A stretch of DNA of 35,763 nucleotides, taken from contig JALHTW010000193.1 of NCBI GenBank assembly GCA_022866045.1, positions 1 through 35,763 on the forward strand, given 5' to 3'. Position 1 is the stretch's first letter. Each line of letters begins with the position of its first letter. The notes below the pieces were generated by a model. It was given only the letters and a program-made list of their open reading frames with translations, made no database searches and was not told the origin of the DNA. Source of the stretch: Candidatus Aminicenantota bacterium (GTDB lineage: Bacteria; Acidobacteriota; Aminicenantia; Aminicenantales; UBA4085). Positions 29,185 to 32,572 of the stretch are shown here, in pieces. A program made the translations under genes and the position numbers.

Positions 29185-29260
29185 GGGGACATGGACCGAA
29201 TTAAGAACCCTGCAATAAGGTCTCACCCGGGTTATCGGCGCTAATTCGGTTCATGTCCCC
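29185..29260. repeat. 76-bp palindromic element with 19-bp arms and nested stem
   Basis: GGGGACATGGACCGAATTA (29185-29203) / TAATTCGGTTCATGTCCCC (29242-29260), 18/19 pairing; inner AACCC/GGGTT. Confidence 0.85.
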
Positions 29261-29274
29261 ATTTTTTTATGGCG

Positions 29275-29302
29275 TAAACCTTTCCCGAAAAGATTTCGTA
29301 AC
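29275..29302 (+). promoter_or_regulatory. candidate ECF-type promoter for the sigma-factor operon
   Basis: TAAACC, 16-nt spacer, CGTAAC, upstream of the lipoprotein ATG at 29334. Confidence 0.3.
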
Positions 29303-29333: not shown

Positions 29334-29762
29334 ATGAAAAACACCGTCAAATCAGGAAAAATTGCAGCGTTGATCACGGGTTCCCTGTTCTTGTCCGCAT
29401 GCTTCCGGGTCCAGGTTATCCGCCATGTGGACAACCCTGACGTGTATTTCGCCAATCTCCATAAGCAAATCGAGCAGATCGAGCGGGAGAACCCGCGAAG
29501 GCTGGGGCGGGCCCATGACCTCTGTCTTTTCGTCTACGAGCACGGGGAAGACCAGATCATCAAACTGACCATTCCGCTCTGGATCGTCAACCTGGCCATC
29601 GACGCGGGCCATGAGGCGGCCGAGAACGACCGTGAATGGAGAAAATGGAAAAGCCGCTATGATCTCGACTGGGACGTCCTCCATGATCTGGGACAGTTCG
29701 GGCCCGGCCTGCTCGTGGCCGTCGATGACGAGCAGGACAAGGTTTTGATATGGTTAAAGTAG
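29334..29762 (+). CDS. putative lipoprotein with C-terminal YvlB/LiaX-N-like domain
   Basis: Lipobox LSAC; C-terminus DQIIKLTIPLWIVNLAID...YDLDWDVLHDLGQFGPGLLVAVDDEQDKVLIWLK. Confidence 0.65.
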   Translation: MKNTVKSGKIAALITGSLFLSACFRVQVIRHVDNPDVYFANLHKQIEQIERENPRRLGRAHDLCLFVYEHGEDQIIKLTIPLWIVNLAIDAGHEAAENDREWRKWKSRYDLDWDVLHDLGQFGPGLLVAVDDEQDKVLIWLK

Positions 29763-29775
29763 GAGATAAAATGTT

Positions 29776-29815
29776 GTCGCTCGGATTGCCGGGCCCTTTC
29801 AGGGCTCGCAATGAC
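29776..29815. repeat. REP-like palindrome (GTCATTGCGAG...GCAATCCGAG type)
   Basis: ATTGC-CGG-GCCCT-TTC-AGGGC-TC-GCAAT imperfect hairpin. Confidence 0.65.
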
Positions 29816-30425
29816 TACTGAGAAAATCATATCATTATATGGCATGGAAGAGATAAAAGAGTTCAATCATGATAACACCTGGACTCTGGTTCAAAAGGTC
29901 AAGGACGGGGACCGGGAGGCCTTCATGACCCTCACCCGGATGTACCAAAAGAAAGTGTTCGTCCTGACCTATTCATTCTTCCGGAACAAGGAGGACGCCC
30001 TCGACCTGGTCCAGGAAACCTTCCTGAAGCTTTACCAGAAGATCGATTCCTTCCGCCGCGGCCATAATTTCGAAGCCTGGCTCCTGCAGATCTCGAGGAA
30101 CCTCTGCATCGATTATTACCGTAAGAATATGAGCCGACGCCGCGAGCTCGAAAGCGAAAAGACCGTCGAGGAGCTGAACGTTCCAGACGGCCGGTCGCAG
30201 GGCGGTGAGCAGGCTCAGGATCTCAAAGACATCCTCTCCCGTTGCGTGGACAAGCTGGCCGAGCGCCAGCGCACGATCTTCATCATGCGGCACTACAACC
30301 AGCTCAAGAACGAGGAGATCGCCCAGGCTCTTGGCATTTCTCCGGGGACGGTGAAATCCCTCCATTTCAAGGCCGTCCATAATTTGCGGGCGCTGATGGG
30401 CCCGTATCTGGGGTGGGAAACATGA
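29811..30425 (+). CDS. ECF-family RNA polymerase sigma factor (start may be 29844)
   Basis: DREAFMTLTRMYQKKVFVLTYSFFRNKEDALDLVQETFLKLYQ; LAERQRTIFIMRHYNQLKNEEIAQALGISPGTVKSLHFKAVHNLR. Confidence 0.93.
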   Translation: MTTEKIISLYGMEEIKEFNHDNTWTLVQKVKDGDREAFMTLTRMYQKKVFVLTYSFFRNKEDALDLVQETFLKLYQKIDSFRRGHNFEAWLLQISRNLCIDYYRKNMSRRRELESEKTVEELNVPDGRSQGGEQAQDLKDILSRCVDKLAERQRTIFIMRHYNQLKNEEIAQALGISPGTVKSLHFKAVHNLRALMGPYLGWET

Positions 30426-31225
30426 GCGACTGTCAAAAGATCCAAGGATGCCTGGCCGCTTTCCTTGATGGAGAGCTCAACGGCAACGATGAGGTTCACA
30501 TGAAAAAGCATCTCGACGACTGCCCGGAATGCCGGCGGAGTCTGGAGGATATGCGTCGGATCCTGGACGGCGCCGAGGCCGTTCGCGAGGACATTCAAAA
30601 AGTCATGGACACGGTCGATTGGGATGCCCTGCCGCGGCAGATCGCGGAAGCTGCTTTTGCCGGGAAAGGACGCGCTCCCAGGGTTTCGAGAGCGTCATCA
30701 TTCTGGCAGGCGTTGGTCCAGCCGCGCTTCCGGCCGGTCTATGCCGGATTGCTCGCCGGGATCGTCGTCGGCGCCGTCGGCATGTTTTTCGCTCTTAAAC
30801 CGCAGATCTTCCGCCCGGCCGCCGGCCTAAAATATTCCGCCTCGAGCGATTTCATCGACCGCGTGGAGCTCCAGCTCGCGAAACGGGAAACGCTCGATTA
30901 TCTCGACAAAAGCCAGTATTTGATCCTCGATTTCATCCAATCCCCGCCCGGCCGGGTGCGGCTCTCACAGAAGGATCTGAATCCTCAGAGAGCGCGGGAC
31001 ATGCTTTCCAAGAAACGCTACATCAATCAGCAGCTGGACAAGATGCAATTGGCCAGGGCCCGGGAGGTCTGCAACCAGATTGAGTTCCTCTTCCTCGAGC
31101 TTTCCCAGATCAGCGACGAGCTGACCGCGGAGGAAGCGGCCAGGATCAAGGATTTCGTCGAACAAAAACAGCTCCTTCTGAAAATCAAGCTCTTAAAGAA
31201 AGAGCTCCAGAAAAGCGAGGTCTGA
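30422..31225 (+). CDS. zf-HC2 anti-sigma factor with TM helix and long C-terminal coiled-coil domain
   Basis: CLAAFLDGELNGNDEVHMKKHLDDCPECRRS (HxxxCxxC); TM AGLLAGIVVGAVGMFFAL; ATGA overlap with the sigma gene. Confidence 0.85.
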   Translation: MSDCQKIQGCLAAFLDGELNGNDEVHMKKHLDDCPECRRSLEDMRRILDGAEAVREDIQKVMDTVDWDALPRQIAEAAFAGKGRAPRVSRASSFWQALVQPRFRPVYAGLLAGIVVGAVGMFFALKPQIFRPAAGLKYSASSDFIDRVELQLAKRETLDYLDKSQYLILDFIQSPPGRVRLSQKDLNPQRARDMLSKKRYINQQLDKMQLARAREVCNQIEFLFLELSQISDELTAEEAARIKDFVEQKQLLLKIKLLKKELQKSEV

Positions 31226-31226
31226 G

Positions 31227-32090
31227 ATGAAAACGATTCGAATATATATGGCGGTTTTGATTTTTATCGCGGCAGGCCTGGGTGCCCTGGGCGAGACGAT
31301 TCAGACGGCGCAAACGGCCGATGAGAAGTCGTTTCAGGAGATCAAGCTCCTGGTCTTTGATGAAAAGTGGATGGAAGCCCAGTCCCGACTCGAGGATTTT
31401 CTCGCTCGGTATCCCCAGAGCTCCTATTATTCGCAGGCCCTCTACTACAGGTCGAAATGCCTGGAAGAGCAGGAAGGAAAGGAGCGGGAGGCCATCAGCT
31501 CCTACAAGGAGTACCTGAGGCTCAAAGACAGGAACAAGAACCTGGCCGAGGACGCCGAGGTCTCGGTCATCGACCTGGCCATGAAGCTCTACGATGAGGG
31601 AGATAAGGGATTCGTCCGGGAAGTCGAAGACCGGATTTCCAGCCCGAACAGGGTCGTCCGCTACTTCGCGGCCGTGCAACTGAGCTACGTCAAAGAGAAG
31701 CGGATCGCCGACAAAAGCGTTCCCGTGTTGAAGCAGATCATCGAAGAGGAGAAGAGCACCGAGCTTCGGGACAAGGCGAGGATCGCTCTGCTCCGCGTCT
31801 CCCCCGAGGCTCTGGCCGGGATCGAAGAAAAGCGCGACGAAAAAAAAGTCCGGATGCTGAAGATCGTCGTTATGGACGACCGGGCGAAGAAAATTGAGTT
31901 CCAGCTCAATATCCCCTGGGCGCTGGCTGACCTGGCCCTCGGGGCCATCCCGGAGGAGGAGAAAGCGACGATGCGGATGAAGGGTTATGACATCAACAAG
32001 ATCCTCAAAGAGCTTCAATCCGTTAAAGGCCGGATCCTCGAGATCAACGACGCCAAAGAAGGAAAAACCATTAAAATTTGGATCGAATAA
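31227..32090 (+). CDS. exported TPR/HEAT-like repeat protein with C-terminal YvlB/LiaX-N-like domain
   Basis: Signal peptide; helical repeats (RLEDFLARYPQSSYYSQALYYRSKCLEE); C-terminus KKIEFQLNIPWALADLALGAIP...YDINKILKELQSVKGRILEINDAKEGKTIKIWIE. Confidence 0.7.
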   Translation: MKTIRIYMAVLIFIAAGLGALGETIQTAQTADEKSFQEIKLLVFDEKWMEAQSRLEDFLARYPQSSYYSQALYYRSKCLEEQEGKEREAISSYKEYLRLKDRNKNLAEDAEVSVIDLAMKLYDEGDKGFVREVEDRISSPNRVVRYFAAVQLSYVKEKRIADKSVPVLKQIIEEEKSTELRDKARIALLRVSPEALAGIEEKRDEKKVRMLKIVVMDDRAKKIEFQLNIPWALADLALGAIPEEEKATMRMKGYDINKILKELQSVKGRILEINDAKEGKTIKIWIE

Positions 32091-32106
32091 ATTCAAGGAG
32101 GCACGC

Positions 32107-32493
32107 ATGAAAAAATTCGCTGTTTGGACCCTGGCCGTATTCATGCTGGGTTGTTTCGCGGCACCCGTCGTGAAGGCCGAAAAAAAGGATGACCTTCAGG
32201 CCATCAAAAAGGCCGTCAAGGAAAACCCGGCTTATGAGGCCGGCAAGGATGTGAAGTGGTTCAAGGTCCTGGTCACGGACGCGAAGACCAACAAGGACAA
32301 GGTCCGGATCACACTGCCCATCTCGATCGTCGAGATCGTTCTCCGCTGCGCCGACGACAAGCGCATCCGGATGCACCGCGAAGACTGCGATATCGACATC
32401 GGGGCCCTCTTCGCCGAGCTGAAGAAGGTCGGTCCCGCGTCGTTCATCGAGGTCATGGACGAGGACGAGATCGTCAAGGTCTGGCTGGAATAG
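32107..32493 (+). CDS. small exported protein, essentially signal peptide plus YvlB/LiaX-N-like domain
   Basis: Start at ATG 32107 (MKKFAVWTLAVFMLGC); KVRITLPISIVEIVLRCADDKRIRMHREDCDIDIGALFAELKKVGPASFIEVMDEDEIVKVWLE. Confidence 0.7.
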   Translation: MKKFAVWTLAVFMLGCFAAPVVKAEKKDDLQAIKKAVKENPAYEAGKDVKWFKVLVTDAKTNKDKVRITLPISIVEIVLRCADDKRIRMHREDCDIDIGALFAELKKVGPASFIEVMDEDEIVKVWLE

Positions 32494-32520
32494 CCCGCCG
32501 TCCCCAGGCCTACGCCGAGA

Positions 32521-32572
32521 TCCCCCTTTCTTCTCCCTTCTTTAAAAGGGAGGAGGAAGGGGGATTTTTTTT
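32521..32572 (+). terminator. Rho-independent terminator ending the sigma-factor operon
   Basis: CCCCCTTTCTTCTCCCTT / AAGGGAGGAGGAAGGGGG stem (two G.U pairs) followed by A then T8. Confidence 0.8.

Follow-up and report, generated by a model that had tools for sequence, protein, structure and literature searches.

Here we describe an operon of five co-directional genes at positions 29334-32493 of a 35,763-nucleotide contig (JALHTW010000193.1; this whole stretch of DNA is called the window below) from a Candidatus Aminicenantota bacterium, a member of the Acidobacteriota. It encodes, in this order, a lipoprotein (A), an extracytoplasmic function (ECF) sigma factor, a membrane anti-sigma factor of the zf-HC2 kind, an exported helical-repeat protein (B) and a small exported protein (C). 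Judging from profile comparisons, A, B and C end in one shared domain, which is unnamed in Pfam and NCBIfam. We have also detected a conserved ECF-type promoter that recurs before other envelope genes; this finding, which is new here, supports the existence of a regulon, and the operon probably forms part of an autoregulated envelope regulon. The features of the operon, in window positions, are as follows.

29274..29301, + strand: ECF-type promoter, putatively autoregulatory, GTAAACCTT-N14-CGTA(A); position weight matrix (PWM) site, motif conserved upstream of homologous operons
29334..29762, + strand: gene A, lipoprotein of 142 amino acids; lipobox LSAC, C-terminal shared domain
29508..29759, + strand: shared domain, A copy (profile comparisons)
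29811..30425, + strand: ECF sigma factor, 204 amino acids; Pfam Sigma70_r2 (PF04542) 1.6e-19, Sigma70_r4_2 (PF08281) 3.3e-16
30422..31225, + strand: membrane anti-sigma factor; zf-HC2 (PF13490) 1.5e-9, one transmembrane helix, helical extracytoplasmic domain of ~140 amino acids
31227..32090, + strand: gene B, exported tetratricopeptide repeat (TPR)/HEAT helical-repeat protein of 287 amino acids; C-terminal shared domain
31845..32087, + strand: shared domain, B copy (profile comparisons)
32107..32493, + strand: gene C, small exported protein of 128 amino acids, mostly shared domain
32248..32490, + strand: shared domain, C copy (profile comparisons)
32519..32566, + strand: intrinsic terminator-like stem-loop (20 pairs, 10 GC) and T-run, end of the operon

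The genes are nearly contiguous, with intergenic gaps from A to C of +48, -4, +1 and +16 nucleotides. We took 29334 as the start of A and dropped a longer open reading frame (ORF) start at 29253, because the promoter falls between both. Since the terminator scan of the region found nine stem-loops against 5.2 expected, the assignment of the terminator rests on its position and strength. A preliminary description of this DNA had proposed five co-directional genes closed by a terminator; all of them lie where it put them, and Pfam confirms the sigma factor and zf-HC2 assignments.

The shared C-terminal domain of A, B and C

The shared domain comprises ~80 amino acids at each C-terminus. Single-pair BLASTP gave E-values of 5e-8 for A-C, 8e-5 for B-C and 0.37 for A-B. 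In profile-profile comparisons, for which each paralogue was aligned with its own orthologues, the E-values were 2.3e-14 for A-C (98%), 7.9e-14 for B-C (98%) and 8.2e-7 for A-B (92%). We also searched the 181 ORFs of the window with profiles built from one paralogue at a time, with 9,050 shuffled ORFs as control. The C-only profile ranks C, B and A first, with B and A at no less than 28.4 bits (best shuffled ORF, 10.6), and the B-only profile ranks B, C and A, all with at least 17.6 bits (best shuffled, 12.6). The A-only profile finds C with 34.9 bits (best shuffled, 6.4); among the same 181 ORFs its score on B, 5.7 bits, is not significant. The domain has two hallmarks: its second strand is followed by an invariant Pro, and its last strand contains a Trp that is nearly invariant. 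The usual end of the protein is [VI]-x-[IV]-W-[LI]-E. The alignable C-termini of the preliminary description are in this way borne out as one domain, its length corrected to ~80 amino acids; the profiles of the three copies match each other, and none matches Pfam.

In AlphaFold models, each built from its own alignment, C (mean predicted local distance difference test, pLDDT, 75) and B (mean 90) have the same order, strand-strand-helix...helix-strand-strand. Compared with folds of the PDB, the C model, whose predicted template modelling score is only 0.52, has no clear neighbour (best E 0.35, Top7). The resemblance of the C-termini could in principle be a convergence of short hydrophobic strands, as an identity of only ~20-25% and the BLASTP value of A-B might suggest. 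However, independent profiles recover the other copies in register and above the shuffled controls, except for the A profile on B, and the predicted structures of B and C share the outer order of two strands, helices and two strands, so that we regard convergence as hardly credible.

A search of Pfam and NCBIfam with 38 members of the domain returned only singletons, at E of at least 0.014 and at least 0.036, respectively, and there was no match among PDB sequences. Neither the domain nor the operon is described in the available part of the PSP (phage shock protein)/Lia survey that defines the SHOCT-like and Toastrack partners (PMC11237479). Matches of the domain at two loci (L072 and L073, E ~3e-5) were rejected as chance, the proteins being read as resistance-nodulation-division (RND) efflux adaptors.

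The preliminary description had likened these C-termini to the SHOCT-like/DUF2089-C-type segment, which is partly right. SHOCT-like_DUF2089-C (PF22746) does not match A, B or C themselves, even at E-values as high as 10, but in cytosolic SHOCT-like_DUF2089-C proteins of Acidobacteriota (L148-L152) a homologous domain is placed after the SHOCT-like helix. The C-terminal domain of these five proteins aligns with the A/B/C domain (hhalign 93.9%, E 1.6e-7), and the domain hidden Markov model also matches two of them (L150 and L152). From these alignments, the shared domain is a neighbour of the SHOCT-like helix that travels with it, and is not SHOCT-like itself. A SHOCT-type protein with 35% identity over its whole length is encoded on a plasmid of Embleya (Actinomycetota), so this family is not limited to one phylum; the plasmid searches returned nothing for B and nothing for the tandem protein described next.

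The domain is also found in other exported proteins. Proteins of ~180 amino acids with two tandem copies, often encoded by adjacent gene pairs, are present at loci L119-L122, L124, L125, L144 and L146; such pairs occur in other classes of Acidobacteriota, and most, not all, of these proteins have two copies. The tandem-domain genes of L125 face a sigma/anti-sigma pair. Small exported proteins with a single domain are encoded at L123, L141 and L143.

Conservation of the operon and its promoter

The sigma factor and the anti-sigma factor are ordinary members of known families. Like other ECF (group 4) sigma factors, the sigma factor has regions 2 and 4 only, and it scores 117 bits against the NCBIfam model sigma70-ECF (cut-off 42.9). 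The anti-sigma gene overlaps the sigma gene, and the pair is kept across the phylum. At its N-terminus the anti-sigma factor has the HxxxCxxC zinc-binding domain of zf-HC2 (class I) anti-sigma factors, over the cut-off for PF13490; H30, C34 and C37 are nearly invariant, although a few orthologues (e.g. L062 and L071) are without some of them. A transmembrane helix was read from the sequence at about residues 108-127, and the helical extracytoplasmic domain beyond it is conserved.

The proposed export of A, B and C agrees with the lipobox Cys of A, seen at the N-terminus of 17 orthologues, and with the signal-peptide-like N-termini of B and C (read by eye). The model of B is a TPR/HEAT solenoid followed by the shared domain. 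Its TPR part is nearest to BamD structures (Foldseek, 3qky, 4.5e-4), and in NCBIfam it matches TIGR02795 (2.9e-6) and OM_YfiO (0.002), both under the cut-off; OM_YfiO, the BamD model, scores 17.6 bits against a cut-off of 81.4, which does not place B among the BamD proteins. A MucB/RseB domain was not found in B with Pfam or NCBIfam, and A and C have no naming match in these databases.

The domain profile matches 108 of 297 Acidobacteriota genomes, and C is present in 48 of 60 genomes from the order, a count that includes the window's genome; with B as query, a scan of genome contigs recovered no more than two close relatives. We collected 56 sigma/anti-sigma operons. In 55 of them a domain gene follows the anti-sigma gene as B does, in 45 C comes next, and in 19 A precedes the sigma gene. 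By gene order, then, sigma factor, anti-sigma factor and B are the conserved core and A and C accessory paralogues, and the neighbourhood expected in relatives is indeed kept. A separate search started from the anti-sigma side (109 genomes). Among the best 17 anti-sigma loci by profile E-value, 13 have an adjoining domain gene (in one case divergent, with a tandem copy), one (L282) is cut by the contig end, and three (L291, L295 and L302) have no domain gene nearby. Weaker matches mostly cover the zf-HC2 half only and are without the domain, which indicates that the pairing is specific to this anti-sigma type and not a property of zf-HC2 operons generally. In six loci (L038, L039, L040, L041, L053 and L058) the stretch from promoter to sigma gene has no full-length A and holds short ORFs or fragments whose ends resemble A's last strand, for example ...KDEENKILIWLE in L039 and ...IDEENKILIWLE in L040; L053 has a very short lipoprotein ending KEKMLLWLE*. 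These may be decaying A genes or retained mini-peptides.

The motif GTAAACCTT-N14-CGTA, or a close variant, lies upstream of 48/56 operons with constant spacing. In the window it is the top PWM site (29.0 bits; runner-up, 11.1) and sits 32 nucleotides before the start of A. The exact pattern has seven sites in the window's genome (none for the reversed pattern) and 40 sites in 31 genomes (four for the reversed pattern). These data suggest that the sigma operon is autoregulated through this ECF-type promoter, and we infer that this sigma factor, and no other, would read the sites. Directly upstream of the promoter, at 29185-29262, lies an inverted repeat, GGGGACATGGACCGAATTA ... TAATTCGGTTCATGTCCCC, resembling a repetitive extragenic palindromic (REP) element; its half-site has 14 genomic copies with at most one mismatch, and the reversed control none.

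Outside the operon, the same motif recurs before other genes, among them the following two.

G000:C174:1310-1498, - strand: 63-amino-acid membrane protein; same promoter motif ahead, no Pfam match
G000:C364, locus L168 3051-4085, - strand: DUF3352-type lipoprotein; ECF promoter ~8-24 nucleotides upstream of the start

The 63-amino-acid protein is present in 35/45 genomes; at 16 of its 25 scored loci the promoter reaches at least 10 bits (reverse-strand control, maximum 5.3), mostly ~50 or ~70 nucleotides from the start. The promoter stands before the DUF3352-type lipoprotein in four genomes, including G003, G004 and G008. Before PspC it was found at only three of 12 scored loci, in three genomes of one lineage, and PspC was therefore rejected as a general member of the regulon. 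All three recurrent targets encode membrane or exported proteins. The suggestion that the ECF/anti-sigma circuit is tied to the envelope thus gains a putative autoregulatory promoter and the same motif before envelope-protein genes. At one further locus (L219, G014:C28) the motif lies ahead of the gene for an exported protein similar to YtfJ (Spore_YtfJ, 2.7e-6), which is uncommon for the YtfJ family.

A proposed mechanism and its alternatives

A membrane anti-sigma factor of the zf-HC2 kind holds its ECF sigma factor until a signal frees the sigma. In the mechanism that we propose, an envelope signal would free the sigma factor from its membrane anti-sigma factor, and the free sigma would transcribe its own operon together with the genes of the 63-amino-acid membrane protein and the DUF3352 lipoprotein; in one lineage it would also transcribe PspC. 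Once exported, A (lipid-anchored), B (a helical-repeat scaffold) and C would associate through their shared domains into an envelope complex; such an assembly is a tentative proposal, for which the chances are not quite even. B, or B with C, would then be the most likely to act back on the helical extracytoplasmic domain of the anti-sigma factor, B being favoured as a candidate by its constant place next to the anti-sigma gene. That B feeds back directly on the anti-sigma factor is itself doubtful. Taken as a whole, we consider an autoregulated envelope-response operon, with an A/B/C complex and feedback, somewhat probable.

Several points weigh against it. The 56 operons were mostly gathered through C or the domain and are a biased sample, a bias that the search from the anti-sigma side was meant to correct. 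A is often absent and C sometimes, so neither is required for the core. The promoter motif is similar to generic ECF promoters and the window's genome has other zf-HC2 anti-sigma loci, so that a different sigma factor may be responsible for part of the target sites. Some of the sites in the window's own genome lie inside genes and are probably due to chance, and the PspC locus of that genome (L255) scores -6.5 bits and is without a site.

The strongest competing explanation takes A, B and C as effectors only, engaged for example in envelope repair or as an aid to outer-membrane assembly (a BamD-like TPR scaffold), with no part in sensing or feedback. The TPR part of B, predicted to be nearest to BamD/YbgF-type repeats, fits this, as does the occurrence of the domain in exported proteins of L122, L124 and L141, where neither a sigma nor an anti-sigma gene was detected. 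However, B stays beside the anti-sigma gene also in operons that have lost C and A, a pattern common for regulators, and we hold the effector-only explanation to be possible, with the odds against it. The preliminary description had put forward three exported receptors or effectors, with the extracytoplasmic part of the anti-sigma factor as a possible partner. In the receptor version, the shared domain could be a ligand-binding or sensory module (for a lipid, a peptide or a cell-wall fragment), while A, B and C would be alternative receptors through which different signals reach the anti-sigma factor. Three divergent copies per operon, of which A is lipid-anchored and the others soluble, and the tandem copies of other Acidobacteriota would suit receptors. 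Yet the conserved columns of the domain consist of hydrophobic or structural residues (P, W, L/I) and conserved polar or catalytic residues do not stand out, and the cytosolic version behind SHOCT-like helices suits an assembly module better, which makes receptors improbable. Returning to the proposed A/B/C complex, a bolder form of it takes the domain as an undescribed envelope-regulation module that serves in the cytosol, where it follows SHOCT-like helices, as well as across the membrane, as part of the exported A, B, C and tandem proteins. Three copies would here form one extracytoplasmic complex controlling the anti-sigma factor and would represent a class of regulators separate from RseB and RsiV; this we think rather unlikely.

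Relation to known systems and other features

In systems of the RpoE-RseA-RseB type, an ECF sigma factor, a membrane anti-sigma factor and an exported protein are encoded alongside each other behind an autoregulatory promoter. The operon described here likewise pairs an ECF sigma factor and a membrane anti-sigma factor with a neighbouring exported protein and a putative autoregulatory promoter. It differs in its anti-sigma factor, which belongs to the zf-HC2 kind and whose helical extracytoplasmic domain is a different one, and in that B, composed of TPR/HEAT repeats and the unnamed domain, has no MucB/RseB match; if B acts like RseB, the parallel would be one of position and not of homology. 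The N-terminal repeats of B are of the same kind as those of the BamD/YbgF TPR proteins, but B falls under the cut-offs of those families and is without the lipoprotein Cys, and it carries HEAT repeats and the shared domain in addition. As in PSP/Lia systems, PspC and a small membrane protein are among the promoter-linked genes, although PspC is linked in one lineage only and neither PspA nor Toastrack turned up in this set.

The Acidobacteriota members of SHOCT-like_DUF2089-C, a family related to the N-termini of YvlB/LiaX, share the domain after their helix, whereas A, B and C have putative signal peptides in its place and lie next to an ECF sigma gene. YvlB carries a Toastrack (DUF4097) domain (PMC11237479), which was not matched in A, B or C. 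Ravi et al. (2024, PMC11237479) mention a DUF2089/Toastrack context to which a sigma factor is operonically linked. An unnamed domain family gains here a genomic and regulatory context, in which exported proteins are linked to cytosolic SHOCT-like proteins that are themselves related to known envelope-stress families. In this phylum, where regulation has seldom been studied by experiment, an ECF sigma factor now has a concrete promoter and a list of putative targets, and promoter, regulon and complex are each directly testable, either in a laboratory host or in an acidobacterium grown in culture.

Finally, an ORF at the contig end (35140-35757, - strand) resembles, by eye, an IS110-type transposase.

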